Below, piece after piece: positions 17,861 through 62,935 of a stretch of 64,000 bases of DNA. Position numbers and translations under genes: made by a program. The notes under the pieces were generated by a model. The model was given only the letters and a program-made list of their open reading frames with translations, was not told the origin of the DNA and searched no databases. The stretch covers positions 310,001-374,000 of the forward strand of contig JASFAU010000017.1 of the NCBI GenBank assembly GCA_039704465.1, written 5' to 3'. This stretch comes from Plasmodiophora brassicae. Lineage: Eukaryota > Endomyxa > Phytomyxea > Plasmodiophorida > Plasmodiophoridae. Position 1 is the first letter of the stretch. Each line of letters opens with the position of its first letter.

Positions 17861-20800
17861 CACCCGGACAAGGCGCCAGCGTGGTGGCGCGAACAGCAAG
17901 CGACACGCGCCGCCGCGAAGGCCAAAGCCGCGCAAACCACGACTCTGTCGGGGAAGCTCGCCGAGCTGACCGCCACCCAGCTTGACGAATTGTTGGCCGC
18001 CGTAGCTACTGCTACTAAAACACCTTCTCAGTACCCATCGGCGTGCACCGCCCGACGCTGGATTGCCGACTCGGGCACCACCGATCACATTGACGACTCG
18101 CACATGTCGAACAAGACCCCCACCAACGTCATCATCAACACGGCTAAAGAGGGTAGTGTTATCCACGGGCGCAGCCGCGGCGACATCGTCGTGCAGCACA
18201 ACAACGCAGAAGGCCAACCGCGACAAGAGATCATCAAGGCCATTCACGTACCAGACATCGGCGCTGACGACCTGTTCTCGATCTTCCACGCCGTTCAGGG
18301 CGGCCGCAACTTCAACTTCAACGAACACGGCTGCCGTCTCACCGACCGGGACAACAACACAATCGCGGTCGGGCACGTGATAGACAACCAGTTCTTCATG
18401 GACATGGACGTACTCCCACCAGCACAAAGCTCGCGGCCGGTGGCCGACTGCTCAGAGCGCGGGGTTGAGACTGCGCTGCAGGCAGGCGTTCCCGTCCCGC
18501 GTGGCGACATCAACGAGCTGCACCAGGTCCTTGCCCATCGCAACATCCCCGACATCAAGATCCTCGCCAAGACCCAGAACGGCATCAAGCTGAATCCGGC
18601 GATCAAGCCGGTGTTTTGCGAATCGTGTGCCATCGGCAAGGCGCGCCGCAAGCCGATCCCAAAGCACAGCAAGGTGCGCCTCCGCCCGCTCGAGCTTGCC
18701 GCCAAGGTTTGGCTCGACGGCAGCGGCCCACAGAAAAACATCTCGCTCGACGGCGAGGAATGCTTCTTCACGCTCACCGAGGGTAAGTCACGCCACAAGA
18801 CGACGTACCTGCAACACAGCAAGGACGAGTCGGCAGGGCAGGTCATCAAGTACGTCGCCTGGCTCGAGCGCAAGACCGGCAAGACGGTAAAGATCCTGCA
18901 TTGTGACAATGCGCCTGAGTTGACACAGGGCGTCCTGCGAGAATGGGCTGTCCAGCACGGCATCGAGATCCAGACGAATGCCCCCTACTCGAGTGAGCAG
19001 AATACGGCCGAATTTGGCCACCGCATCTTGATGAACCAGGCGCGTGCGATGGTCCACTTCGCCCGCCTGCCCAAACCCTTCCTCGGGCTCGCTATTCGCT
19101 ACGCCACCAAGATCGTCAATGTCTGCCCGCACCCCGTCGACAAGTCAACCACGCCTTTCGAGATGCTGAACGAGTCTGCCACGCAACCCCACTACGACCA
19201 CTTTGTCAAGTTCGGGTGCGATGCGTTCGCCGTCGACGAGGACACGACCGTGACCAAGTCCGACCCGCGTGCCAAGAAGTACGTCTTTGTCGGCCTCTCC
19301 GACTCGGCTAAGGCCTACAAACTACTCGACCCGCAGACCCATAAGATCGTCGAGCGCTGCAACGTCGACTTTAACCAGCAGGGGTTCGGCGATAGGCAAC
19401 TCGAAGACGCGTTCACGGTTGACGAGGCGATCGACGCTGACAACCAACACCGCGATGTCGACTACGTGCCCAGCGTCGACGGAGACGACTACGACTCCGA
19501 CGGCCACGACCTACCCGGTGACGATGGAGATGACGGCGGTGAAGATGAGCCCGACCATCATCATGACGGTGACGACGCCCGATTCCTGGCAGATGAGCAG
19601 CATGCTCCCGCAGACAACGACGGCCCGCCTGTGCCGGTCGGACCCAGACGATCAAGCAGGCAACTTCAGCCTGTCGACCGCCTGGGCGACATGGTTCACC
19701 ACAACTGGGGCCGACTCGCTTACACCAGGACCACATCCGCAACGAGCACCACCAGCGCAATTCTCGACATGCCTGACACACTCAAGGAGGCCATGACAGG
19801 CCCCGACAAGCAGCAGTGGCAGTCGGCGATGAACGAGTTCCTCGATCGCCTAGAGAACGCCCACGAATGGGTCCAGAGCCGGCCAACCGAACATCTTTCC
19901 GAGGTGCCCGCCCCGACCGGCACCCACCACCGCGCATCGCTCGCACAGGTACAACCGGAGCCTCTGCACACCTACACAAACCTTCTGCGCGCGTACTTTA
20001 CCCGGGCCGCCAAGGCGGAACCGATTGCGCCGCTGGACTACGACGCAGCCGTTAACGGCATCGACCAGACCGAGTGGCGTGAATCCATCCGCAGCGAGCT
20101 CAAGTCGCTCGACGACAACGGCACGTACGTCGATCAGAATCCCGATCAGCTTCCGAAGGGCGCCAAGGTCATCGGATGCAAATGGGTCTTCAAGCTCAAG
20201 AAGATCGGACCTGATGAGACACTGCCCGAAGGGCACAAACGGACTCTGCGCACGCTTCCGGACGGGTCGCGCATTCGCTTCAAGGCTCGGCTCGTGATTA
20301 AGGGATTCCTACAAAAGCACGGCCGCGACTATACCGAGACGTTTGCCGAGGTCGTGCGCCCCGAGATCATTCGCCTGGTGATGGCGATCTCTGTCGAAGA
20401 CCCCAACATCGCTGTCGAGCAACTCGACATCACGACGGCGTTCCTGCACGGGCTGCTGACCGAGGATGTTTATATGACGACGCCACAGGGTGCCGACCGC
20501 CGGTCCAAGGTCGTCAAGTTGCTCAAAGCCCTGTATGGACTGAAGCAAGCGCCGCGCGAATGGTTCAAGTCCATCAACGCGTTCCTCGTCAACGAACTCG
20601 GCTTCACCAAGCTCAAGTCGGCCACATGCACGTACGTTAAACGTCGTGCCGATGGTAAGTACCTGATCGTCGCGCTGTACGTGGACGACCTGACCCTGGC
20701 CGGGCATCAACAATTGATTGATGCAACCAAGGCCGCGCTCAAAAGAAGGTTTGAACTCAGCGACCTGGGGCCGATCAAGAAGGTGATTGGCATCAGCGTC

Positions 20801-21581
20801 TCGCATGCCCCCGACCGCGAGACCGTGTTCCTGGACCAGGCGCACTACATCCGCGACATCATCAAGCTGTACGGAATGGAGCACTGCCATCCTGTGTCAA
20901 CCCCCGCGACCAGCACGAAGCTGACGAAGGATATGTGCCCCCGGTCCGACGCGGATCTGGTAGGCGTCCTCGACGAGAGGATTGACTACAGGCCGGCGGT
21001 GAGCGCCCTGCAGTATGCCTGCAACACGCGCCCTGACATTAAGTACGCCGTTGGTCAAGTCGGCCGGTTCGTACAAAACCCGGGCGTCATGCACTACAAG
21101 GCGCTCAAGCGGATCTTCCGCTACCTAAAGGGCACACTCGACTACGGGCTCCAGTACACTCGCACAACATCTACCGCCGGCGGCAAGCCCACTTACCTAC
21201 TCGCCGCCATGTCTGACTCGGACTGGGCCGGCAACCAAGATGACAGGAAATCGACGTCCGGGTACCTGATCACCGTTAACGGCAACACCATTTCCTTTAA
21301 GGCCAAGGCGCAGCAGTGCACGGCACTGTCGAGTTCCGAAGCCGAGACCATCGCCCTGACGCTGACCGCGCAGGAGGTACTCTGGCTTCGCGACGTGCTC
21401 GCCGTGCTTGGTTTTCCCCAGATCGAACCGACGACCATCTTCTGTGACAACGTCGGTGCCAACGCGTTCGCCAAGGATGTTGGCAACCACACCGCCATGA
21501 AACATAACAACCTGCGCGAGTTCTTTGTCAAGGAGGCCGTCGCCAACAAAAACATCACTACCAGCTACATCCGATCTGTCG
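17861..21581 (+). CDS. Copia Pol polyprotein (protease, integrase, RT, RNase H)
   Basis: Same frame as Gag, separated by one TAA. Protease active-site motif RRWIADSGTTDHI; GAG-pre-integrase zinc region (ELHQVLAHRN ... CESCAIGKARRK); integrase catalytic residues in VWLDGSGP, LHCDNAPEL and YSSEQNTAEF; a very acidic linker at about 19430-19600; RT with FKARLVIKGF, AFLHGLLTEDVY, LYGLKQAPREWF and the catalytic YVDD in VALYVDDLTLAG; RNase H with SDSDWAGNQDDRKSTSGYL, LSSSEAETIAL and FCDNVGANAFA. No internal stop was seen in about 1,240 codons, so the insertion is young or the body is recently mobile. The normal C-terminus after SYIRSVENTADR is replaced by inverted sequence. Confidence 0.92.
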
Positions 21582-21841
21582 AGAATACGGCCGACAGATC
21601 GGATGTAGCTGGTAGTGATGTTTTTGTTGGCGACGGCCTCCTCGACAAAGAACTCGCGCAGGTTGATATGTTTCATGGCGGTGCGGTTGCCAACATCCTT
21701 GGCGAACGCGTTGGCACCGACGTCGTGATGTCGAGTTGCTCGACAGCGATGTTGGGGTCTTCGACAGAGATCGCCATCACCAGGCGAATGATCTCGGGGC
21801 GCACGACCTCGGCAAACGTCTCGGTATAGTCGCGGCCGTGC
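21582..21841 (-). repeat. Fold-back tail of the copia element
   Basis: Spacer 21582-21591, inverted copy of RNase H coding 21592-21722, then inverted copy of RT coding 21723-21840. On the minus strand it reads KNITTSYIRSV and YTETFAEVVRPEIIRLVMAI. The two source blocks lie about 1 kb apart in the parent, so two template jumps are needed. Confidence 0.9.
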
Positions 21842-21923: not shown

Positions 21924-22115
21924 TGTAGAGCGGGGCTCTATATTTAGCGTCTCGTGGCGCCCGACCTCAAGATGCTGCTGTCCTGAGGAGGGGGTCCTGC
22001 TGTCCTGAGGAAAGGGGGCCTGCACGGATTTAGCTCCACTGTGATGGCAGGGGCGACGCCGTGGATGGGATGGATGATAAAGCTCATTGGGATATTGGCT
22101 CGAGACTGACTACAG
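21924..22115 (+). repeat. 5' LTR of the gypsy element
   Basis: 192 bp, TGTAG...CTACA. It differs from the 3' copy by a 3-nt indel (after CTCGTG) and a 1-nt A-run indel. Contains two copies of CTGCTGTCCTGAGGA. Confidence 0.92.
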
Positions 22116-22177
22116 TGCGCACTCTGTCTGATCCCACACGTCTGACTTCGTCCCGCACCACGTCGAGACGCTGCGCC

Positions 22178-25100
22178 ATGGCATCGGAGACGACGTCCAG
22201 CACGGACGAGCATATTGGTGTCAAGGACGCGGATGTCAGCATCCTGCCACGGGTCGCGAAGTTGGACTCCACATCCATCTTGAAGTTGAAAGAGCAGTAC
22301 GATCGATATTGTGCAGTGGTGATCGACCGTGAGGGCAACCGTCCGGAAGCCGCGAGGATCAAGCCTCAAGCGATACGATTCTGCTTTACCACGCCGCAGC
22401 TGACCTGCATCGCGTTGAATCACCTGTTCCTGACCAATGTCGACCTGCTGACAGATGACGACCTGGAAGGATGGATCGAAGCGCAGATCAAAAAGCTTCC
22501 AGCGAGTCATGGCCTGACGACCCAAGACATTGAGGCCAAAATCGCGAGTGAGCTGTCGATGGACACCAGCCTCCCGACTCTGAGGGATCAAGTTCAGTCG
22601 ATCCTGGACCGCATGACTGAAATCCAGTGGAGACGAGGCTGGCAGCACATGCGCGAAACAGTCGGTGGGCGTAGAGCCCTTGGCCGTTTGCTGGTTGATA
22701 CGCTTCAACCATGGAGGCTACGTGACTGCACCGAGATGGATACGCTCTCAGGATGTGCCGCAGTCGATGTCGATTGTATCGAGACCGTGAGGCGAATTGC
22801 CGCGAGAATGGCAACGTTGCGAGGAGATCACTACCCAGTACCAGAGTCGGACTCTATGGAACCGTCGTCAAGTGAAGTTGACTTGGGACCGATCAATGCT
22901 CACGAGATCGAAGCTTCTTGTAACCGGATGGTACACCAAGCACGTCTCAATGGCATGTCTCGTCAAGGAGTTGCTAAGCTACGATTGATCTTGCGACGAC
23001 ATCTGAACGAATTCCGCATGCGCCTGGGTCAAGACAAGCCTGTCGATGTCGAACCGATGGTAACACAACTCAAGCAGGACGCTACTCCGTACCGGTGCAA
23101 GCCTCGGTTCTACAATCCTAAGCAGAAGGAGTTCCTAGACGACATGATCAGTATGCTGAAGGAGAACGGTCTTGTCTACATGAACATGAACTCACGTTGG
23201 GCAAGTCCAGTCCTAGTCGTCAAGAAACCGAAAGGCGATGGCTATCGTCTATGTGTCGATCTTCGTCAAGTGAACGCACGATGTGTTCCCACAGCATGGC
23301 CGATGCCGAATGTTGAGGCTGTTTCGCGCAAGCTCTCCGGCATGACTTGTTTCTTCACGATTGATGCTTTCTAGGGCTTCTGGTTGATGCCTTTGGCTAA
23401 GGAGTGTCAGGAAATCTTCAGCTTCATGACGGACGACGCTGTATTCACGCCTACGAGGAGCATTCAAGGGGGAATGAATTCGGCGGTTCAGTTCCACGCC
23501 CGAATGGCTGCTATCTTCGACGACATGAAGGAGAATTTGCTCATCTGGATTGACGACATACTCGGATTCGCGAGGTCGGAGGAAGACCTTCTTCATCAAC
23601 TGACACGAGTGTTGGAGCGGTGTCGCGAGCGCAACCTGAAGCTGAACCCGAACAAGTGCACGTTGTTCGCTCGCGAGTTGAAGTGGTGCGGCAGGATATA
23701 CTCGCGAGAAGGAGTTCGGCATGATCCAGAACGTATCGAGGCGCTGACCAGCATGCCACGCCCGAAGACCGCTAAGGACCTGCAGCAGTTTCTGTGGGCG
23801 GCTAACTGGATGCGTACCCACGTACCCGGCTACGCAAGTATAGTACGACCGCTGCAAGAGCTGCTTGACATTGCCAACGAGGAGCTGAAGCGCATTCGAT
23901 CATCATCGCCATCATGTGTCTCGCTGGACGCACTGGGCTGGTCCGATCAGCACAGCAAGTCATTCGAGGACGTGCGCTTCGCTTTGATTCAACACGTTCA
24001 GCTGGCGTTTCCGAAGGAGGATTATCAGACCTGCCTGTTCACGGACGCCAGTGATGCAGCATGGTCGGCGGTGGTCACGCAGATCCCGATGGAAGACGTC
24101 AACCTGCCTGTATGCGAACAACGACATGAACCTCTCGCATTCTACGGCAAGCGCTTCTCAGGTGCAGAGATCAGATGGCCCACGATCGAGAAGGAGGCAG
24201 CCGCGATCATCAACGCTACGCAGCGCGGTGATTTCCTACTGCAGACATCCCGGGAGTTCCTGCTCTACTGCGATCATCGCAATCTGACTTTCATCTTCCA
24301 CCGGAACTCGGAGATCAAGAAGCATACGGCGCAGAAGCTAGAGCGATGGGCATTGCATCTACAAGGCTTCAGCTACAAGATGAAGGAGATCGCTGGAACC
24401 GACAACGTATGGGCAGACCTTCTGACCCGATGGGGAGCTTGTCGCATCGTACTGTCATGTAGAGCAACGCGCATCATGCAGATGGACGATTTGCGAGTCA
24501 CTCCTCGGCAACATCCTGAATTCAGCTGGCCGACCGAAAAGGAGATCCGCGATTCGCAACGCTTTCTGTCACGAGAGGAGAAGATCGAGGACGGGGTGTA
24601 CTTCGATGAAGCTGATCGTCTGTGGAAGAACGAGAGCAAAGCCGTTCTTATTCCTTGTCATCAAGACTGCAAGAGTCTACGCCTTCGAATCCTGGTCATT
24701 GGCCATTGCGCAAGCGCTGGTCATCGTGCTGTGCCGGCTCCAAGCTATAAGACAAGAATAGCTGTGATCCGGCTAGGCGGCCTAGCCGGATCACAGCTAT
24801 TCTTGTCTTATAGCTTGGAGCCGGCACAGTGCGTCGGAAGTAACCAAGCAGATGATCACGGAGCGTTTCTTCTGGACCAAGATCAATCAGGACATTGAAG
24901 CGATGTGTCAGCAATGCCTGCATTGCATCACGACACGCGGTGGTAAGAAAGTTCCTCGACCGCTCGGTGAAGCATTACATGGTCATCAGCCGTTCGAAGT
25001 ACTCACCATGGACTATCTCTATGTGGAGCCTGTCAGGGGCGCGGACCACAAGTACAAGTATATCCTGCTCTTGAAGGACGACTTCAGTGGTTATGTTCGT

Positions 25101-26048
25101 CTGATTCCATCAGCTGAAGCGACAAGTCGTGTTGCTGCGGAAGCTCTGAATCAGTGGATTGCCGATTTCGCAACGCCCGAGTACCTGGTCACGGACGGTG
25201 GTTCACACTTCACTGCAGAAGTCATGGAGGAGCTTACCCGGCTACGAGATGTTCAGCATCACATCACAACGGCATATTGTCCGTGGGCTAACGGCACGGT
25301 GGAACGCGCGAACCGCACGGTGCTTAACGTCATGCGATCAGTCCTGAACGAGGCCCAGATTAGCACGCACAACTGGCCGTACTTATGTCCTGTTGTCCAG
25401 CATGTCATCAACCACACACCAAGTCGACGACTCAACGGCTACGCGCCATTCACGGTTATCACGGGACGTTCACCGGAAAGCCCGCTTGACCAGATCTGGG
25501 ACCCAGTAGAAAGACAGTGTCGACGAGTACCACCGGAGGGATTCGCCAAATACGTGCAGATGTTGCAAGAGACTCTCGACGAGATCCACAAGGCCGTCGA
25601 TGAAGCGAAGGCACAGCGACATGCTGCCAATGTTGAGCAACGACGACGACGACTCAAGAGTAGTCCCTACGAATCGTTCATCGTTGGCGACTACGTGCTC
25701 AATGCCAAGCCAGTACCAGGTCCTGCGCAGAAGCTGATAGCGCTGTGGCGGGGACCGTACCGAGTTGTCAAGCAAATCAACGAGCAAGTGTATGAGTTGG
25801 AGAACCCACTATCTGAACGACGCTTCAACGCACACACGCAACGAATTCGACGATATGCAGACGCTGACTTGAACATGACCGTCGATTTGAAGCGCCACCT
25901 CCAACACACTGACCAGCATTTGATTGTGGACGATCTATTGGATTGTCGTATCGATCGAGACACGCAAGAACTGCAGATCAAGGTATCGTGGTCTGGGTTT
26001 GATCTTGAGGAGGCGACGTGGGAACCTGCACATATCATCTATGAGGAC
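22178..26048 (+). pseudogene. Gypsy polyprotein, broken
   Basis: First ATG after the LTR is at 22178. The about 290 N-terminal codons are Gag-like but without a CCHC knuckle, and no DTG/DSG protease motif was found. RT motifs: ASPVLVVKKPKGDGYRLCVD, FFTIDAF, IQGGMNSAVQFH, the catalytic LIWIDDILGFA; RNase H FTDASDAAWSAVV and EKEAAAIINA; integrase zinc region with CQQCLHC, then DYLYVEP, VTDGGSHFTAE, and a chromodomain-like end VSWSGFDLEEATWEPAHI. Lesions: TAG at 23372-23374 replaces the usual Lys of the DAFKGF motif, and the 24729-24829 palindrome interrupts the integrase zinc finger and shifts frame. The reading frame resumes after the nested element at 30864-31007 (VPELVHQLIRRL ... TAG). Confidence 0.9.
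24729..24829. repeat. Perfect 101-bp palindrome inside gypsy integrase
   Basis: Arms 24729-24778 and 24780-24829 are exact 50-nt reverse complements around one G. The flanking frame indicates a net insertion of 3n+1 nt (for example 100 nt) into the integrase HHCC region. The arm sequence was not recognised elsewhere in the window. Confidence 0.93.
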
Positions 26049-26140
26049 TGTCACGATCAGGCAAGCTGATGCAACGAACGCTTTGACGGACTGGCGAAGT
26101 CCGTCGCGGGGTTCTCGGTTTATTCCGGACAGTCCTCACA
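26049..26140. repeat. Left 92-bp LTR of the nested element
   Basis: Begins TG and ends CA; identical to 30767-30858. Contains an 8-bp hairpin GACGGACT / AGTCCGTC. Confidence 0.9.
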
Positions 26141-26489
26141 TAATAGTCCCCTTCTAGCGATGGGCCTCTGACGGGTCCGGGATAGAAGGGCAGACGGATG
26201 GCCTCTGATGGGTCGCAGACGAACGGACAGGCGGATGAGCAGGCAGACGGGCGGGCAGACGGACGGACAGACGAACGGACAGGCGGATGAGACGGGCGGG
26301 CAGACGGACGGACAGACGAACGATGAGCAGGCAGACGGGCGGGCAGACGGACGGACAGACGGACGAACGGGCAGACGGACGGACAGACGGACGAACGGGC
26401 AGACGGACGGATTAGCAGACGGACGGAGAGACGGGCGGGCGGGCAGACGGACGAACAGGTTTGGTTAGTGACAGCACGTCGCAACCGAG

Positions 26490-29400
26490 GCCTTGACGTT
26501 GTGCAGGAGATGCCGAGGCGGGATCGACACTGGCGGACGGACGGACGGGTAGAGACAGCAAGCGGTCAGGGAAACACCGGCGGCCTGGGAGGCAAACAGC
26601 ACGGCGGGACACGCGCACTCTGGAACTTGGACCAGCTGCGACCGAGGCCTTGACGTTGTGCAGGAGATGCCGAGGCGGGATCGGCACGGACGGACGGGAA
26701 GAGACAGCAAGTGGTCAGGGGAACACACCGGTGGCCTGAGAGGCATACAGCACGGCGGGACACGTACTCTGGGACTTGGACCAGGTACGACCAAGGCCTT
26801 GACGTTCTGCGGGGATGCCGAGGCGAGATCGGCACGGACGGACGGACGGGCGGGAAGAGACAGCAAGCGGTCAGGGGAACACCGGTGGCCTGAGAGGCAT
26901 ACAGCACGGCGGGACACGCACTCTGGGACTTGGACCAGGTACGACCGAGGCCTTGACGTTCTGCGGGGATGCCGAGGCGAGATCGGCACGGACGGACGGA
27001 CGGGCGGGAAGAGACAGCAAGCGGTCAGGGGAACACCTGTGGCCTGAGAGGCATACAGCACGGCGGGACACGCACTCTGGGACTTGGACCAGGTACGACC
27101 GAGGCCTTGACGTTCTGCGGGGGATGCCGAGGCGAGATCGGCACGGACGGACGGGAAGAGACAGCAAGCGGTCAGGGGAACACCGGTGGCCTGAGAGGCA
27201 TACAGCACGGCGGGACACGCACTCTGGGACTTGGACCAGGTACGACCGAGGCCTTGACGTTCTGCGGGGGATGCCGAGGCGAGATCGGCACGGACGGACG
27301 GGAAGAGACAGCAAGCGGTCAGGGGAACACCGGTGGCCTGAGAGGCATACAGCACGGCGGGACACGCACTCTGGGACTTGGACCAGGTACGACCGAGGCC
27401 TTGACGTTCTGCGGGGGATGCCGAGGCGAGATCGGCACGGACGGACGGACGGGCGGGAAGAGACAGCAAGCGGTCAGGGGAACACCTGTGGCCTGAGAGG
27501 CATACAGCACGGCGGGACACGCACTCTGGGACTTGGACCAGGTACGACCGAGGCCTTGACGTTCTGCGGGGGATGCCGAGGCGAGATCGGCACGGACGGA
27601 CGGGAAGAGACAGCAAGCGGTCAGGGGAACACCGGTGGCCTGAGAGGCATACAGCACGGCGGGACACGCACTCTGGGACTTGGACCAGGTACGACCGAGG
27701 CCTTGACGTTCTGCGGGGGATGCCGAGGCGAGATCGGCACGGACGGACGGGAAGAGACAGCAAGCGGTCAGGGGAACACCGGTGGCCTGAGAGGCATACA
27801 GCACGGCGGGACACGCACTCTGGGACTTGGACCAGGTACGACCGAGGCCTTGACGTTCTGCGGGGGATGCCGAGGCGAGATCGGCACGGACGGACGGACG
27901 GGCGGGAAGAGACAGCAAGCGGTCAGGGGAACACCGGTGGCCTGAGAGGCATACAGCACGGCGGGACACGCACTCTGGGACTTGGACCAGGTACGACCGA
28001 GGCCTTGACGTTCTGCGGGGGATGCCGAGGCGAGATCGGCACGGACGGACGGACGGGCGGGAAGAGACAGCAAGCGGTCAGGGGAACACCTGTGGCCTGA
28101 GAGGCATACAGCACGGCGGGACACGCACTCTGGGACTTGGACCAGGTACGACCGAGGCCTTGACGTTCTGCGGGGGATGCCGAGGCGAGATCGGCACGGA
28201 CGGACGGGAAGAGACAGCAAGCGGTCAGGGGGCACCGGTGGCCTGAGAGGCATACAGCACGGCGGGACACGCACTCTGGGACTTGGACCAGGTACGACCG
28301 AGGCCTTGACGTTCTGCGGGGGATGCCGAGGCGAGATCGGCACGGACGGACGGGAAGAGACAGCAAGCGGTCAGGGGAACACCGGTGGCCTGAGAGGCAT
28401 ACAGCACGGCGGGACACGCACTCTGGGACTTGGACCAGGTACGACCGAGGCCTTGACGTTCTGCGGGGATGCCGAGGCGAGATCGGCACGGACGGACGGA
28501 CGGGCGGGAAGAGACAGCAAGCGGTCAGGGGAACACCTGTGGCCTGAGAGGCATACAGCACGGCGGGACACGCACTCTGGGACTTGGACCAGGTACGACC
28601 GAGGCCTTGACGTTCTGCGGGGGATGCCGAGGCGAGATCGGCACGGACGGACGGGAAGAGACAGCAAGCGGTCAGGGGAACACCGGTGGCCTGAGAGGCA
28701 TACAGCACGGCGGGACACGCACTCTGGGACTTGGACCAGGTACGACCGAGGCCTTGACGTTCTGCGGGGGATGCCGAGGCGAGATCGGCACGGACGGACG
28801 GGAAGAGACAGCAAGCGGTCAGGGGAACACCGGTGGCCTGAGAGGCATACAGCACGGCGGGACACGCACTCTGGGACTTGGACCAGGTACGACCGAGGCC
28901 TTGACGTTCTGCGGGGGATGCCGAGGCGAGATCGGCACGGACGGACGGGAAGAGACAGCAAGCGGTCAGGGGAACACCGGTGGCCTGAGAGGCATACAGC
29001 ACGGCGGGACACGCACTCTGGGACTTGGACCAGGTACGACCGAGGCCTTGACGTTCTGCGGGAGATGCCGAGGCGAGATCGGCACGGACGGACGGGAAGA
29101 GACAGCAAGCGGTCAGGGGAACACCGGTGGCCTGAGAGGCATACAGCACGGCGGGACACGTACTCTGGGACTTGGACCAGGTACGACCAAGGCCTTGACG
29201 TTCTGCGGGGGATGCCGAGGCGAGATCGGCACGGACGGACGGACGGGCGGGAAGAGACAGCAAGCGGTCAGGGGAACACCGGTGGCCTGAGAGGCATACA
29301 GCACGGCGGGACACGCACTCTGGGACTTGGACCAGGTACGACCGAGGCCTTGACGTTCTGCGGGGGATGCCGAGGCGAGATCGGCACGGACGGACGGACG

Positions 29401-30725
29401 GGCGGGAAGAGACAGCAAGCGGTCAGGGGAACACCGGTGGCCTGAGAGGCATACAGCACGGCGGGACACGCACTCTGGGACTTGGACCAGGTACGACCGA
29501 GGCCTTGACGTTCTGCGGGGGATGCCGAGGCGAGATCGGCACGGACGGACGGACGGGCGGGAAGAGACAGCAAGCGGTCAGGGGAACACCTGTGGCCTGA
29601 GAGGCATACAGCACGGCGGGACACGCACTCTGGGACTTGGACCAGGTACGACCGAGGCCTTGACGTTCTGCGGGGGATGCCGAGGCGAGATCGGCACGGA
29701 CGGACGGGAAGAGACAGCAAGCGGTCAGGGGAACACCGGTGGGCCTGAGAGGCATACAGCACGGCGGGACACGCACTCTGGGACTTGGACCAGGTACGAC
29801 CGAGGCCTTGACGTTCTGCGGGGGATGCCGAGGCGAGATCGGCACGGACGGACGGGAAGAGACAGCAAGCGGTCAGGGGAACACCGGTGGCCTGAGAGGC
29901 ATACAGCACGGCGGGACACGCACTCTGGGACTTGGACCAGGTACGACCGAGGCCTTGACGTTCTGCGGGGATGCCGAGGCGAGATCGGCACGGACGGACG
30001 GACGGGCGGGAAGAGACAGCAAGCGGTCAGGGGAACACCTGTGGCCTGAGAGGCATACAGCACGGCGGGACACGCACTCTGGGACTTGGACCAGGTACGA
30101 CCGAGGCCTTGACGTTCTGCGGGGGATGCCGAGGCGAGATCGGCACGGACGGACGGGAAGAGACAGCAAGCGGTCAGGGGAACACCGGTGGCCTGAGAGG
30201 CATACAGCACGGCGGGACACGCACTCTGGGACTTGGACCAGGACGACGACCGAGGCCTTGACGTTCTGCGGGGGATGCCGAGGCGAGATCGGCACGGACG
30301 GACGGGAAGAGACAGCAAGCGGTCAGGGGAACACCGGTGGCCTGAGAGGCATACAGCACGGCGGGACACGCACTCTGGGACTTGGACCAGGTACGACCGA
30401 GGCCTTGACGTTCTGCGGGGGATGCCGAGGCGAGATCGGCACGGACGGACGGGAAGAGACAGCAAGCGGTCAGGGGAACACCGGTGGCCTGAGAGGCATA
30501 CAGCACGGCGGGACACGCACTCTGGGACTTGGACCAGGTACGACCGAGGCCTTGACGTTCTGCGGGAGATGCCGAGGCGAGATCGGCACGGACGGACGGG
30601 AAGAGACAGCAAGCGGTCAGGGGAACACCGGTGGCCTGAGAGGCATACAGCACGGCGGGACACGTACTCTGGGACTTCGACCAGGTACCACCGAGGCCTT
30701 GACGTTCTGCAGGAGATGCCGAGGC
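26490..30725. repeat. Minisatellite array, about 29 units of 146-155 bp
   Basis: Units contain GAGGCCTTGACGTTCTGC, GATGCCGAGGCGAGATC and GCATACAGCACGGCGGGACA. Two length classes alternate: 146-147 bp, and about 155 bp with an extra GGACGGGC-type block. Internal units are nearly identical; the first two and the last are the most diverged. Because unit lengths are not multiples of three, the long open frames on both strands (up to 463 codons) are not evidence of a gene. Confidence 0.93.
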
Positions 30726-30766
30726 GGGATCGACAGGAGGGTGGTGGGATAGGTAGTCCGTCAAAA

Positions 30767-30858
30767 TGTCACGATCAGGCAAGCTGATGCAACGAACGCT
30801 TTGACGGACTGGCGAAGTCCGTCGCGGGGTTCTCGGTTTATTCCGGACAGTCCTCACA
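30767..30858. repeat. Right 92-bp LTR of the nested element
   Basis: Identical to 26049-26140, then AGGAC and resumption of the gypsy frame. Confidence 0.9.
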
Positions 30859-31007
30859 AGGACGTTCCCGAGTTAGTGCACCAGCTCATAAGACGTCTGG
30901 GAGACAATCATCCACAAGCGGAAGCTCTACGTCGTTTCGCCCCAGCACCAAAGCGAGCGAGTAACGCGCAACGCCAGACAAAGCGGAAGCAGCGACGACG
31001 GCATTAG

Positions 31008-31753
31008 GTATGAATGACAATGCCTGTGCAGTGTTTACGGTTTGTGGTTGTACAGGAGTCAACCGTCAAACACGCTTATTCAGTACCGTCGGGACCGGAA
31101 GGACGACGCAACCGTATCGGTTCTGCATTGGACGATGCGAGGATGATCATGATCATGGTCCTCAATCATTGTGGGCCCGGTTCTCAAATCATTGGGACCA
31201 TTGCAACTGGTTTGCATGCAAGTCATGGAATCAGTCAACCTGGTTGTTATGCGATCATGCAACCACGGTTTATGGCGCTCCTCTGAGAGGCCATCACGCT
31301 ATTCGATGGGTAGTCACACAGGTGGACTCATCAATATCGTTGTGTCACGGGACATTCGGCAGCATCCGTTAAGTCACTCGTCACCGCAGATTTGACTCTG
31401 GTCAGGGCGTTCTGACTATCGAGACTCTGTTGCGCTGGGGGTCCACGCATCTGTGTCGGCCGCTGAGCTAGGTGAATGATACTTTTCGGGTGTATATGGA
31501 CCGGGCTCCACCCATCTGGGTCGAGCGCCCCATCGCCGATGTTTTCGTCAGTTCATGTATCTCCATCTCGGCTGGCTATGGCAAGGGTGTCCGTAAATGG
31601 ATTTTCCACCGATTTTTCCCATGGGGTTACAAGGTGGTTTTTAGTGAGTATTGGGTGATTCCGAGTCTCACACTACCCTTCGCCGTCTTCCCTATCTTCG
31701 CCGGGCACGATGATGATGTTGCTGGTTCCGGGCACGAGTTCGGAGAAAGGCAG
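31008..31753. other. Gypsy 3' untranslated region
   Basis: Lies between the chromodomain stop (31005-31007) and the 3' LTR. No domain was recognised in any frame. GGAGAAAGG just before the LTR (about 31742-31750) is a plausible short polypurine tract. Confidence 0.6.
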
Positions 31754-31941
31754 TGTAGAGCGGGGCTCTATATTTAGCGTCTCGTGCCCGACCTCAAGAT
31801 GCTGCTGTCCTGAGGAGGGGGTCCTGCTGTCCTGAGGAAAGGGGGCCTGCACGGATTTAGCTCCACTGTGATGGCAGGGGCGACGCCGTGGATGGGATGG
31901 ATGATAAAGCTCATTGGGATATTGGCTCGAGACTGACTACA
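31754..31941 (+). repeat. 3' LTR of the gypsy element
   Basis: 188 bp, TGTAG...CTACA, followed by the CCTT target duplicate and the right half of the interrupted repeat. Confidence 0.92.
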
Positions 31942-32220
31942 CCTTCATTTGTTCTCAGCGACATGGCCGGATGAGCAATTTGATCCGTGCAGATTGAAGA
32001 AGCGCTCCGAGAATGGTCGCCAGTCAGTCCGGCGACTGACGGGGTGCTATGCCTTTGCTGCCAAACGATTCGGCATGGCTATATGCCAGTACATCTACCG
32101 GAAGTGGTCCAGCTCTTCGATGAGGCAATGCGCCACTGACGAGCTCGCTCTGACTCCGCGCACTGCGTGCGAGCCCAAAGGTTTTGCCTGTTGTTTGGAA
32201 CCACTTTGACGAGGCCGCGC

Positions 32221-32745
32221 GTTGGTGGACACAGATGTGATCGCTGTCTGTGTAGGGCCCGTGGTACGGGCGAGATTCGAGGTGCTGGTGGTAGGCCACC
32301 CAAGCTCAGTCCCGTGCAGCGCCTTCTTAGCTTCATCCTACATTTCAAGCATGACAACAATTTTGTTTACGACAGCGGGAAGTGGGGGCGATTTTCGTTG
32401 CTACCTGCACCAACGAAGCGATTCTGGATAAGGACGTAAGGAGATATACTGGCCTGGCGAACACGATCGGGAAATGCTGGGTTGCATTGGGAATATCGAT
32501 GGAACTCTGGTCAGGAATCCCAGACCTCGCAACAAGCTCGAACACGGACGATGGTTCAATGGCCAGAAGAAGATGTACGCCATGAACAATACCGTTGTCA
32601 TCGACCACTTCGGCCTAATTCGCTACGTTGACCCCGGCTACCCTGGATCATTCCACGATGTGAACTGTCTCCGGCAGTCAAACCTTGCCACGAACTGGAG
32701 GGAACACTTCACTCGTGACGATGATGAACAGTATTTCGATTGACT
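32221..32745 (+). pseudogene. PIF/Harbinger-type transposase, plus-strand copy
   Basis: Encodes the DDE_4-superfamily core GCIGNIDGTLV, LEHGRWFNGQKKMYAMNN, VVIDHFGLIRYVDPGYPGSF and HDVNCLRQSN, with a further DAGYPG just after it at about 32752. The upstream part (GRPPKLSP ... QRLLSFIL) is in another frame, so the copy is broken. It is the left arm of a large inverted repeat with 32901-33491. Confidence 0.8.
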
Positions 32746-55875: not shown

Positions 55876-58800
55876 ATGACGGAGGCGGCGATGGATTCCG
55901 CGAACATCACGTCGGGGGTAGTTGCGGTGACCGGCTCCGTCGGCGGACGGGCGACTGCGGCGGCGGAGTTGGCAGTTGCCGTCGTGTGCGGGATGGAGGT
56001 CGACTGCACACTGCTGCGCTCCGTCGTCCAGGACGCCTGGAACGGGCAGTACACGATCGACCACCTGAACAAGACGCTGGTCCGGTTCCAGGATGCGCTG
56101 GCGAACCCGTTGCAGCAGGCGGTGCGTGCTTGCGCGCCCGACGGCGCGTCCATCGTCTCTCGGGGGGCGCGCGCTGACTTGTCACAGGCGCCGGACGCCG
56201 ATAGCCGGGCGAAGATCCAGTCCAGGAGCGTCCGTCTTGCCGGCGAAGTACAGGAGATCACGTTGCAGAGCGATGTCGTTGCATGGGTACTGTGGGTCGC
56301 ATGTGCTGTGTGAGACGCGGAACATTTACCCGTTTGCGTCAGATTCTGGAATTCAGTGACGCTGTCGAGTTGAACGAACTGGACGTTCTTCGCCTGCTCC
56401 TGCAAGCGTTCAGGATGGTTTGTCGTGTGCGATCCCCTCAGACGAGTGCGATCCTTCCAACACGTCGCCTGTGTGTAGGACCCTGATGATCGTCGGCGGT
56501 GTGACAGCGAGAAAGACACTGCAGTGTCGCTGTATTTCTCACAGCGCGAGGACCTTCTCGTTGCGCTGCTTGATATTGTGCAAATGGTTGGCGATGACGC
56601 CGACTCAAGCCCGAGTCTCGCCCGCGCGATGCAGTCGTTCTTTGACCGGCTGAAGGACGCCAACCTTGTCAGGAACTGTATCGACCGAATTCGCGTACGG
56701 CCCTCGTAGCCTGTTCGACGCCGACGATGGTTCTGACTGAGTGCCTCGTAGTTCTTGTCCCGCATGAAGCTGTCTGTGTATATGACCTATGTAGACAACG
56801 AAATTCGACTGCTTGCGCTTATCCTTTTTTACATCGAAATGCATTCTGGCCTGGACAACAGGACTTCGTCCCAAGGCCAGCATTCAAACGTTGTTGCATT
56901 GTGCACCGTTGCCGGTACGTTGACCGCGCCACGTTCGGTTCAGATGCGTCCTGACAGTACATTCTGCAGAGGAAATGTCGCTATCCATTCCTTCCGTTCG
57001 GACGCATTACCAACAGCAGAACAATGTTCTTGCCCACTGTCATTCCCTCACTACGGTACGATTATTCGTCACTGCTCGGCTATTGTCAGCCTTACCATTG
57101 GCCCGCAGTCAATTTACATTATTCTAACGACGATCATCAATGCTGTATCGCAAACGGCGGGCGGAATCGATCTGCCGAAATGGGCGCCACCTGGGACGCC
57201 TAGCCCTCTGTTTGCATCATACGACCTCATGCGCAAGATAATTGGCGCAGCGGTTCCAAGTGCTCTTGGCGACACTGATCTGGCTACCGTCGCGTTTGAT
57301 GGTCTTTCCGGTTTCGGCGCATTTGTCAACCAAATGCCCACATTGTCTCCGAAATCGCAAATCGACATTTGTGATTGCCTGGCGAAATTCGTCGTCTACT
57401 TCTTGGGTCGTCACTTCTCAACTGTCCGGTCGACCAAGAACCCGGGCGCTTTGCTGAGTCTGATTGGCTCGCTTATTGCCGCGATTGCCAACGTTTCTGA
57501 AGACCACGTTGCTGTGTTTTGTAAGGGCATTCGCAAGAAGACGGATAACATGTGTCTGATGTATTTGCTTTAGGGCGATGCAAGGCTGTGTCAGACTTGC
57601 TGCACGCGCTTGACCTCGATACACCTCCTGACAGTCCCCGGTTCTCATCCTTCTGCGACCTTATCGTCGCGTTGAGTCGTGGCGATGATGGGCCACGTGC
57701 TGTCCAATTCCTTGCTGGTGCGAAGGGCACGAACTGGCACCGGATTTTCGACTTGTTCCATCGCGCCATCCGAGACATGTCGTTGGCTCCATCCAAAGGT
57801 CCAACATCAGCGCCTGTCGCCCAGGTTACTTCCTTGCTCCCGCTTGACATCAGCATTTTGTGTGACCTCGTTCGTCTCGTTGAGGCGATGGCTCGTTGCA
57901 GATCGAGTGTCTTGTCGCCGTAAGTGTTGTTTGACGTATTTATGCTGCCACGACTAAAGGTCCTTTGTAGGTCTGTCCAACAACTTCAAGTTCTTGAAAC
58001 GCTGTTCCAAATGGTTGTTTGTGCTTTTCCCGTTAGGTTGAAAGCGCGCATCCTGTCTGCCATTGCCGCTTACGTCGTGGGGCATCCAAGCGAGGTTGGT
58101 CAGGTTTGGGATCGCCTAGAAGGCGTACAGATCCTTGATACGCAGCCTGCTCCGGGAACGAGCCCTCGACGAGGCCTCCAGCATGACTTGGAGGACGTCG
58201 AAGTTCCGGATGGGTCGTATCCTTTGACCACAGCGTTCCTGTCCCTGCTTCTCGTCTTGATGCCGTTGACGCCAACCTCTATGCGCGTCAAGCTTGGGGC
58301 TCCTTTGCGCGCTCCAGGTATTGCTCCGTACGTAATGTACGTTCGCACATCGATCCTGGCGCCTCTTTGCGGGCGCACGTACAATCTGCCCTCTGAAAAG
58401 TGGACTATCGCGTCCCTCTGCCTGCAATTCCTTTCGTCCGTCATAGACGACAGTGATGCCGTTGAAAGCCTGATGTCCAGTCAGTCGCGGGAGCTGCGTG
58501 CAATCGTTGAGCTGATAGAGTCCTGCGCTGCTTCTCAAGACGCCAACACTGGTGACGCCTTGCAAGCCGCGCTGGATCTGTTACGGGGCGCGCTAGAGCG
58601 GCAGGATGACGTTGTGAAGCAGATGACACGTGCCAGTCGTGAACACGTTACGCTGTCGTCCGCTTTGCTCCGTCAACCGAACACCATCGGCATCGTTTGC
58701 GGGCTGGTCGGCGCTCCTCCCGGTTCGTTCAAGGACCTCAGCGTTCAGGTCAACGCGGCCGATGTTGTGCAAGCGGTGGCGCTGCGGGATCCCACCCTGG

Positions 58801-61569
58801 TTGCTCGTCTTCTCTCTTCGCTTCGTCTCAGTGACAGCGTCCGCGCATCGTGGTCGACACAACTGCTCTGTGCCAGCTCGGATGCTGTGCTTCACGAACG
58901 CCTGAAGTCCACGATCATCAGAACGATGACAGACACTCTCGGAGGGCATTGGCCAAACATTGCCCATGTCCTTGTTGGGTTCGATACAACCAGCGCTGCG
59001 TGTGACGGCGCTCGCCTGGCTCATGCCAGCAACGGCTGTCTGACAGCCTTGATCGACCTGATATGCCGACCGGGCTGGCTGGCCGCCTGGCCACATTTAG
59101 GACAAATCTCGCTGCGTTTGATCTGCAATCTTCTGGAAGATCCCGTCACAAGAGCGCTGGTTCACCAGTTCATCTCCCTGCACTACGACTCGTTCTTCAC
59201 GACATGTCTGCGTTCGCTCCCGACTCTGGCGGATGCTGCGTCCTGCCCTCGTGAACGTCGTTCTGACTTCATGCTTCAGGAAGCGTGGCTTCTGAAGTCG
59301 ATCGCCCTGGACCTGCAACTTCGTCGCCAGCTGGACCAGACCATGATGTTTGAGTCCACGTCGTCAGCGCTTGATTTACTCGGGCTGAGTACGGCGTACC
59401 TGCACCAGCTCACGCATCATGCAACGGCAACGCCCTCTTCGCCGCTAATGTTGACGCTACTCGACAGTATATACCCTGCTGTGGACGGCGGTCTTCCTGA
59501 ATACGGCGGCCTCGAACGCGCCACATGCAATGTGATCGGGCGCGAGACGCTGTCCAATTGCATTGAGCAACGTGGCGAGCAGTTCGTTTGGAGGCTTGAC
59601 CGCCTGCAGCAGGCTTCGATGGCGTCCGGCCTGGATGCTGCAGCCATTGTCGAGTCTGCGAAGCGCTTCAACCGGAACGTGTTCGTGCTGGAGGCGTCGC
59701 GAACGGCAGCTCATTGCTGGTGCCAGCTGATCCAGGTTTGGATTCTGGAGCGCAATGACGCAGGCGATCGCCACATGCTACCGATTCTGCTTGAACTCCT
59801 GTCCTCACTTCTATCCAAGCTTTCCGATGCGAACTGGGCTCCTGCGAGCGCGTCGTTTGCCACGACTGCCCTTGCGCTTGCCGTTCAGATCCGTTTGATC
59901 GCTCGCGGGGGCGGCGTCACTGCTGATCATCGGGTCATGGAAGGCGTTCTCTCCGGGATCATGAGCGGCCAGTCGCTGCCCGCGAAGAACCACCTGTTCG
60001 CATTGTTCTACGTGTACATGGACCTGCTCGGTGCATCTGCATCCAGAACGCGCGGCCGCGAATGGGCTCTGTCGCAATCGTTAGCGGACCTGAACATTTC
60101 GTCCACGCACCTGATCCAGCGAATCGGCACGCACGCCATCAGTGGGCACGCGTCCACCCAGGCCCTCGCCGTCATGTTCCTAACAGCGTATCCTGTCGAT
60201 CTGCTCGTCCCGTTATTGGAACGCTCATCTCAGGTCGTCCTCTGTATGCCGTCATCGTTTATTTATGGGCACACTGACCCGCGTTGCAGATGGTTCGCTT
60301 TGTCCAAGTGCTGACTGCCGGCAGCCAGTCGTTGCCTACTGCGCTAACGTCGTCCCCTGCGAACTATCACCTGGTGCTGTCTCTGGAGTCGCACCTGCTG
60401 TTCCTCGTGCACGTGGCGCAGTCGCCATCGGGCGCGAAAGCGCTGTTCTCCGCCGACGTCCTCGGCCGCATCGGTGAGGCGAACTATCTGTCGGCGCGAC
60501 CGCCGCCCACCGTGCACACCGACTGCATGAACCCGTCCGCCATGCAGAAGTACCACCAGCTGCTTCTGCCGACCCTGCAGCTCGTGATCTCGCTGCTGAC
60601 GACGATGCCGAATCGTCACGACGTGCATGCGCGTGTGCTGGACTTCCTCCTCGTCACACACCTGAACGCGTTCACGGCCGTCGTCAGCGCACAACCGCCG
60701 GCGACGTCAGCGGACCACCTCAGTGCGTTCCAGTACGCCGTTGCCATTGTCCTGGCGTTGGCCAGCGGGCCGAGCCACGCCCGCCCGGAGCTTGCGGCCA
60801 TGGTCCAGCTCGTGCTGCAGCAGTTCCCTGTCCTGTCAACCCTGTTCCGCGACTCGATGAATTCGCAACCGCCGTCCCCATCCTACGCCGACCTGTACCG
60901 CGACCTGGTGTCGCTGTGCGCGTTCCTCGTCCAGCGCCGCCTCTACGTCTTTGACGCCAGCATCGACCCGAAGCTGGACACGACGGCCGCCGTTTCGACG
61001 TCCAAGGCGATGCCTCTCGGTGGGTTGACGAGGGTTATCGTATTGCGCTGACGGTCGCTGATCCGCTGCCTGACTCGCCAGGCCTTCTGATCTACTTCGC
61101 CATACCAAGCTCGCTGGGCGTCCTGCGAGACGCACGTCTGCGCAAGGCGCGTGCCGAAGAGATCCTAGGACGCCTGGAGCGTTCCGAGGTCGATGGCGAG
61201 GCCGTTGAGGACGGGGCAGCGCCGTCGACGGCGACATACCGCGACGAGATCGCATCGGCGATCGGTTCGGAGCGGACCGCGACCATGATCGCCCAGCAAG
61301 CCCTGCAGATCGTGTTCCTGTCGTTGCAGATGTACGGGACGGACGGCGACGCGGCCGACAGCGTTCGCCCGCATACAAGTCGCCTCCGACAAGCCGTCGA
61401 GCAATGTGAAGCGGCGCTCGGCGCCGATGACGAGCTCGTCGACAAGCAGGTCCGGCGTATCCGGAGCGAACTGGACGCCCTGGACGGCAAGACGGCGGCG
61501 GCGGCGGCGGCGGCGGTAGCCGTCCCCGATGCTGGCAGTACGCCCGTTCCCCAACTGATGTACTTCTAA
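55876..61569 (+). CDS. NUP205: Nup205/Nup192-family inner-ring nucleoporin
   Basis: Ten exons (55876-56286, 56343-56417, 56479-56694, 56752-56914, 56970-57055, 57109-57520, 57574-57919, 57971-60233, 60290-61019, 61082-61569) join to 5,190 nt, 1,729 residues, the normal size for this alpha-solenoid scaffold of the nuclear pore inner ring. Introns are 51-62 nt, several with GTAAG donors. Recognition points: ILEFSDAVELNELDVLRLLL then AVSLYFSQREDLLVALLDIV near the N-terminus, SLTTSIYIILTTIINAVSQT, and the family-typical block YPLTTAFLSLLLVL ... APYVMYVRTSIL ... NLPSEKWTIASLCLQFL at about 58217-58435. Introns 56915-56969 and 57056-57108 are inferred: unspliced, the frame stays open by chance because their lengths sum to 108. 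Nup188 is the alternative family, judged less likely. Confidence 0.85.
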
Positions 61570-62524: not shown

Positions 62525-62708
62525 TTGATCACGGGTGCCAGTACGTATATACACATTCGAGGAGCGCGTCCAAACGATTGCACCGATGCCAACGGTTGCA
62601 TCGGTAGTGTATTCGTTCTGGCGTCGTTGCCGTTTAGGGCCCCGGGTTCGATCGAGAATGCCGATGCGTCCCGGCTATACTACTAGGTGACGATGGCGCA
62701 GAGCCTAC

Positions 62709-62935
62709 TGCGAGCTGCATCTTGGACGCACTGCGAGCTGCATCGTGAAACCACTGCGAGCTGCATCTTGAACGCACTGCGAACTGCATCTTGAACGCGC
62801 TGCGAGCTGCATTTCGAACGCCACAGCGAGCTGCACGTTGGGCGTCCGTGTGAGCTGCATGTTGCGGCGTCAGTGTGAGCTGCATGTTGGGTCGTCAGTG
62901 TGAGCTGCATGCGGACCGACAGTGCGAGCTGCATC
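62709..62935. repeat. Minisatellite of about 23 bp, about 10 units
   Basis: Units share GCGAGCTGCATCTTG / GTGAGCTGCATGTTG with spacing 21-25 bp, degenerate between units. It ends about 50 bp before the mL46 start codon and so lies in or next to its promoter or 5' UTR. Confidence 0.88.

Follow-up and report, generated by a model that had tools for sequence, protein, structure and literature searches.

Tandem arrays inside long terminal repeat (LTR) retrotransposons are already established in plants, where Ogre/Tat and Retand are Ty3/gypsy LTR elements with internal arrays of variable length and with non-autonomous carriers among them (PMC7004042, PMC11963269). The plant arrays follow pol and precede the 3' LTR, either in coding elements or in their deletion derivatives, and abnormal strand transfer in the particle has been proposed as the source of the repeats (PMC7004042, PMC11963269). 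The SVA and LAVA elements of primates likewise are non-autonomous, combine a central variable number tandem repeat (VNTR) and a variable centre with conserved ends, and are thought to be mobilised by the proteins of another element, but they are non-LTR elements and change of their arrays has been shown at the DNA level (PMC4432496). Here we describe an element of 4810 bp, located at positions 26049-30858 of a window of 64,000 nucleotides (the whole stretch of DNA analysed, C17:310001-374000) in the 25.3-Mb, 21-contig genome of the rhizarian protist Plasmodiophora brassicae. Its sequence suggests, with a probability that we put at about 0.87, a non-autonomous LTR retrotransposon of a self-primed Ty3/gypsy chromodomain family with an internal VNTR. 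Since Ogre and Retand carry comparable arrays, the P. brassicae family is a further variant rather than a new kind. When compared with the plant elements, (i) the array constitutes 88% of the element (4249 of 4810 bp, as spanned by Tandem Repeats Finder, TRF) and starts near the primer site, (ii) priming appears to be by the element's own RNA, (iii) the host is a rhizarian, and (iv) no free satellite was found among the unit matches in the genome. From SVA and LAVA the family is distinguished by LTRs, 5-bp target duplications and, presumably, integration of cDNA.

The anatomy of the element (Table 1) is largely that described in a sequence-only reading of the window. The two 92-bp LTRs are identical, start with TG and end with CA (among the family members compared, pairs are identical or near-identical), and the duplication AGGAC is present on both sides. 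The insertion interrupts the chromodomain of a host gypsy element: in the domain scan, the left flank matches positions 2-40 of the 53 of Chromo, and the joined flanks (75 + 60 nt) yield a single open frame across the empty site. A simple repeat of the GACGG type accompanies the array in the interior, in which no gag or pol was seen. Long open reading frames (ORFs) of up to 463 aa run through the array and, together with the divisibility of 147 by three, could be quoted in favour of a repetitive protein encoded by it. We regard this as hardly credible, because the array is open in more than one frame on either strand, and because the lengths of 24 of the 37 distinct unit types are not divisible by three, so that reading frames are not kept. 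The array announced by the sequence-only reading was recovered (28.3 copies with a period of 147 bp, against about 29 units), but the range of 146-155 bp given for its units was not, single units being 144-161 bp long across the family. A retrozyme was considered and rejected, as an Rfam scan of window positions 25000-32500 with E values up to 1 revealed no hammerhead ribozyme, nor any other ribozyme or RNA.

The element belongs to a family. Absence of the LTR elsewhere had been named as one observation that would refute the sequence-only reading; at least 41 genomic matches were found instead (53 candidates, 40 scored), and a 30-bp LTR core occurs at 52 sites with at most three mismatches, compared with 0 for the reversed pattern. 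Solo and paired LTRs with 5-bp duplications are both represented. Among the fetched loci, array material is present at 11 sites: nine have two LTRs (the window, L009, L012, L013, L014, L015, L016, L019, and one insertion found in four copies on contigs C18 and C13) and two have one, while L020 is a solo LTR. Perfect 5-bp duplications flank eight of the nine two-LTR sites, one of these eight being the insertion present in four copies, as well as the solo LTR. Paired LTRs agree fully within elements except in L019, where one LTR is longer by a single base and the other is split by an insertion; with a length of 92 bp, the LTR resolves insertion age poorly. Seven two-LTR sites without nested insertion range from 1160 to 4810 bp, L014 with one such insertion reaches 7837 bp, and L019 comes to ~0.83 kb when its insertion is subtracted. 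With 11 array-bearing sites, and ends shared with the partner described below, the proposal of a non-autonomous LTR element that has the array as its body and occupies many sites was borne out.

Two alternatives can be weighed against this distribution. If the family had spread by duplication or gene conversion at the DNA level and not by reverse transcription, one would point to the single insertion of which four copies exist, distributed over two contigs and embedded in a 169-bp satellite that is itself duplicated. We consider this very improbable in view of eight two-LTR sites with differing flanks and differing perfect 5-bp duplications, a partner of the same anatomy, and tandem-LTR junction nucleotides that fit cDNA ends (see below). 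Equally slight is the chance that the array or its flanks are assembly artefacts: tandem arrays are prone to assembly errors, and small insertions or deletions in units could be residual ones, but the same anatomy recurs at nine two-LTR sites with differing flanks (exact unit numbers being less certain), and the contig count fits that of the published single-molecule real-time (SMRT) assembly of e3, with 20 nuclear contigs and one mitochondrial contig (PMC6823432). The P. brassicae protein PBRA_009646 has matches of 96-100% to this genome, at five places.

An autonomous element sharing the LTR could indeed be identified. These Ty3/gypsy chromodomain partner elements are ~5.5 kb long, and their 87-bp LTRs are 96% identical to the element LTR over 77 bp. 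Partner copy L023 exhibits, in separate ORFs, matches to zinc knuckle, protease, reverse transcriptase (RT), RNase H, H2C2, rve, SH3_Tf2-1 and Chromo, that is, the order gag, protease, RT, RNase H, integrase together with the chromodomain of a Ty3/gypsy chromovirus. A pattern search located nine two-LTR partner copies (on C1, C6, C8, C9, two on C11, C13, C15 and C19), all nine of which have 5-bp duplications (four computed, five read by eye). The similarity to the array family extends beyond the LTRs: the 13 nt following the 5' LTR are identical, and ~53 bp adjoining the 3' LTR are 77-79% alike. As the sense of partner gag-pol corresponds to the minus strand of the window, the orientation assumed in the sequence-only reading has to be reversed. 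The partner also contains a 14-bp minisatellite of its own between primer site and gag (L023:7447-7565), the longest run of which comprises 8 units in L022, L023, L027 and L028.

The putative primer site TTTTGACGGACT is complementary over 11 nt to AGTCCGTCAAA in the element's own LTR. A match of at least 11 nt was reached by 3 of 20000 mononucleotide-shuffled LTRs, a figure that is generous because the match overlaps an existing hairpin arm of the LTR. The 56 nt that extend from the presumed start of the RNA as far as the primer site are identical in the two families, and the predicted fold of this region, comprising repeat (R), unique 5' region (U5) and primer-binding site (PBS), holds the primer stem (z -3.75, 0 of 200 shuffles; for an 82-nt version, z -3.36, 1 of 200). 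Priming by a tRNA was considered and rejected: the best match to the primer site among 40 tRNAs, a set without initiator Met, is only 5 nt, and the first 20 nt after the LTR contain no TGG. The 40 tRNAs are the 46 hits outside contig C21 less six neighbouring ones; 17 of the 63 scored hits are on C21, which is presumably mitochondrial. ARAGORN detected no tRNA in the window. At the level of sequence, these features suggest self-priming as in Tf1-type elements. In Tf1/sushi elements, an 11-nt primer site is likewise complementary to the 5' part of the element's own RNA (PMC7175516, PMC4600332). Transcription of that RNA begins at the primer sequence, and cleavage follows base 11. The fold predicted here is consistent with such a course, and the integrase region of the partner matches SH3_Tf2-1 and Chromo. 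The element described here differs in being noncoding and array-bearing.

The array is a single lineage, inherited through transposition and remodelled inside, as is evident from its common end units and unit order. End units are specific to their position: first units differ by 4.87 edits when compared between insertions, as opposed to 21.57 edits within the array, and the corresponding figures are 0.8 and 11.51 for second units and 0.33 and 8.34 for last units (six arrays for first and last unit, five for the second). For inner units the corresponding values are 5.21 between copies and 4.7 within. The window element and L016 have nine units in common in the same order (0 of 300 shuffles). 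Unit order was scored for the window, L009, L010b, L012, L013 and L016, omitting L014 (interrupted), L015 (two double units), three of the C18/C13 copies, L017, L018 and L019. A prefix of 4-9 units is shared in 8 of the 15 array pairs (reached by 0, 0, 1, 0, 0, 2, 0 and 1 of 300 shuffles), part of this signal being the end units themselves, since shuffling also displaces the marked first unit. The other seven pairs, which have no shared prefix at the cut-off of 4 edits, all involve L012 or L016, in which the first unit is a hybrid or contains a small insertion. The first unit of L012 is an exact hybrid of first-unit and common types (83 and 93 nt of 155; 9 edits from type J, 13 from type A), as in-register recombination would give; it is the only first unit used as a hybrid, because a variant with a single change also scores as one.

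The comparison of copies reveals unit numbers from 1 to 28, with end units and order kept. Counted by anchors, the window element has 28 units, L009 25, L016 10, L013 7, L012 4, each of the four C18/C13 copies 8, the L017 fragment 2, and L019 one near-complete unit with a ~20-nt repeat on either side; L014 has 11 units plus one interrupted, and L015 has 10 intervals, two of which hold two units. That L019 contains about one unit fits growth of the array inside the element, or contraction. The unit folds less stably than its mononucleotide shuffles on average (-39.8 vs -45.7, SD 4.1). Derivation of the unit from the partner was rejected. Apart from shorter matches, the comparison gave just 26 bp in opposite orientation (E 0.016 with the unit, 0.003 with the L019 interior), and we take all of these to be chance.

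The sequence-only reading had called the element a mobile satellite carrier, either a TRIM that captured and amplified a satellite or a route by which satellites are seeded at new sites. An array on an LTR element present at many sites is indeed what is observed. Capture and free seeding are unsupported, because all unit matches in the genome (at least 76; 15 of 15 candidates scored) are at loci bearing the element LTR. Capture of a genomic satellite that is now carried and seeded by the element, one of two scenarios discussed for plants (PMC7004042) and in keeping with an interior that is a tandem array, therefore appears unlikely to us, the more so as the marked end units common to the arrays point to one lineage and L019 has about one unit only.

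Traces of cDNA are possibly preserved at the sense 5' end of two elements, a partner copy on C13 (L054) and L014 (8760-8946), where LTRs are in tandem. The junction in the partner copy, GAAA (4 nt), corresponds to exactly 2 nt per flank, and that in L014, AAA (3 nt), is one short of the expected TAAA. We infer that these junctions fit end-joined linear cDNA.

Taken together, the following route can be envisaged. RNA would be transcribed from the LTR on the window minus strand; judging from the shared ends, it would be packaged and reverse transcribed by partner proteins, with its own 5' end serving as primer in the manner of Tf1, and the cDNA would be inserted by the partner integrase. The 147-bp array, being part of that RNA, would be handed on with each new copy. 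Its end units and order would persist while its middle would gain or lose units in register, with template switching during reverse transcription and/or slippage or unequal exchange of DNA as the most likely causes. It is tempting to speculate further that the family is a self-primed LTR counterpart of SVA, with an array that arose within the element as reverse transcription jumped strands at short direct repeats, that is rewritten at transposition, and that is kept because its RNA helps to exploit the partner, e.g., through packaging or length. We consider this doubtful; if true, transposition itself would be a minisatellite generator.

Several observations weigh against the assignment as a self-primed, partner-dependent retrotransposon. 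Besides the overlap of primer match and hairpin arm and the composition of the tRNA set, partner copy L023 is broken up into several ORFs, and stops are found in some of the other RT hits; L012 lacks a target duplication and has a second LTR truncated at 81 bp; and L017 and L018 have one LTR each, both loci being truncated so that a duplication is not assessable. Moreover, the four C18/C13 copies all keep 8 units with small differences, so that fast change in place is unsupported, which is a weak test because these copies are young.

TRIM elements have two short terminal direct repeats, a primer site, a polypurine side and solo or tandem repeats, and are noncoding, as is the case here; by the definition in PMC6934838, they are shorter than 1000 bp and have repeats of 100-250 bp and a primer site of the tRNA type. 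Without nested insertions, the P. brassicae elements are 0.8-4.8 kb long, with 92-bp repeats and a primer site apparently of the self type. The earlier comparison with TRIM/LARD elements hence holds as regards a non-autonomous LTR element, but not as regards a strict TRIM, since eight of the nine two-LTR sites are too long (only L019 is below 1000 bp) and tRNA priming was not found with the set described above. Helentrons are DNA transposons without LTRs. Those of oysters share with the family described here that they are non-autonomous mobile DNA dispersing short tandem arrays (PMC9659126).

We found no account of the element in the open-access literature on P. brassicae or on array-bearing or TRIM-like LTR elements, and PMC6823432 makes no use of the word "retrotransposon" in its main text. 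The family extends array-bearing LTR elements to a rhizarian protist, where a tandem array spreads as mobile DNA, apparently with the help of partner proteins. The origin and spread of tandem arrays in retroelements are unsettled: for plant elements, strand transfer in the particle has been suggested (Macas et al. 2009, cited in PMC7004042), and the evidence for SVA/LAVA points to DNA-level slippage (PMC4432496). As a 25-Mb genome holds nine two-LTR sites, one array lineage recognisable by its marked end units, the partner, and a relative in which there is about one unit, reverse-transcription and DNA routes are distinguishable by sequencing in this family.

Table 1. Features of the element and its insertion site (window coordinates)
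Feature	Position	Strand	Basis
Host gypsy element, left part: RT, RNase H, integrase, first part of chromodomain, in separate ORFs	22061..26048	+	ORFs, domain scan
Left target site duplication AGGAC	26044..26048		flank comparison
LTR (3' LTR in sense orientation)	26049..26140	-	identity to 30767-30858; strand from partner gag-pol
Polypurine-tract side, sense ...CTAGAAGGGGACTATTA, preceding 3' LTR	26141..26193	-	77-79% to partner family over ~53 bp
GACGG-type simple repeat	26215..26458		TRF
Tandem array, period 147 bp, 28.3 copies, higher-order period 449	26484..30732	-	TRF; unit order
Putative primer-binding site, sense TTTTGACGGACT	30755..30766	-	11 nt complementary to LTR; fold
LTR (5' LTR in sense orientation)	30767..30858	-	sequence identity
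Presumed RNA 5' end and self-primer, sense AGTCCGTCAAA	30800..30810	-	complementarity, fold; transcription start inferred
Right target site duplication AGGAC	30859..30863		flank comparison

The insertions are found in different contexts, namely a gypsy chromodomain (window), copia elements (L016, L017), the 169-bp satellite (C18/C13) and other sequence; 10 flank ORFs were scanned for domains, and the sites are too few for a claim of targeting. The 169-bp tandem satellite surrounds the four-copy insertion at ~20-29 kb of C18 and ~1142-1151 kb of C13 (flanks of L010 and L011), each contig having two copies, in opposite orientation. Family members have themselves received insertions. A 5.3-kb element with TG...CA ends, a 5-bp duplication CGTTC and an RT hit is located inside the array of L014 (2022-7356), and an LTR of L019 is interrupted by a 1.6-kb insertion (588-2209) that resembles a DNA transposon in its inverted ends TAGATCTGTTA and 10-bp duplication GTCCGGAATA. 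Around the window element, a 22-bp tandem motif at 21975-22023 recurs 9.8 kb away at 31802-31850, and both occurrences are probably within the LTRs of the host gypsy element. Positions 17990-21829 contain an open frame of 1279 aa which we take to resemble a copia polyprotein. Window ORF 57924-60314 yielded no protein match at E 0.001. A further imperfect tandem repeat, with a period of 23-25 bp, is present at window positions 62707-62935.

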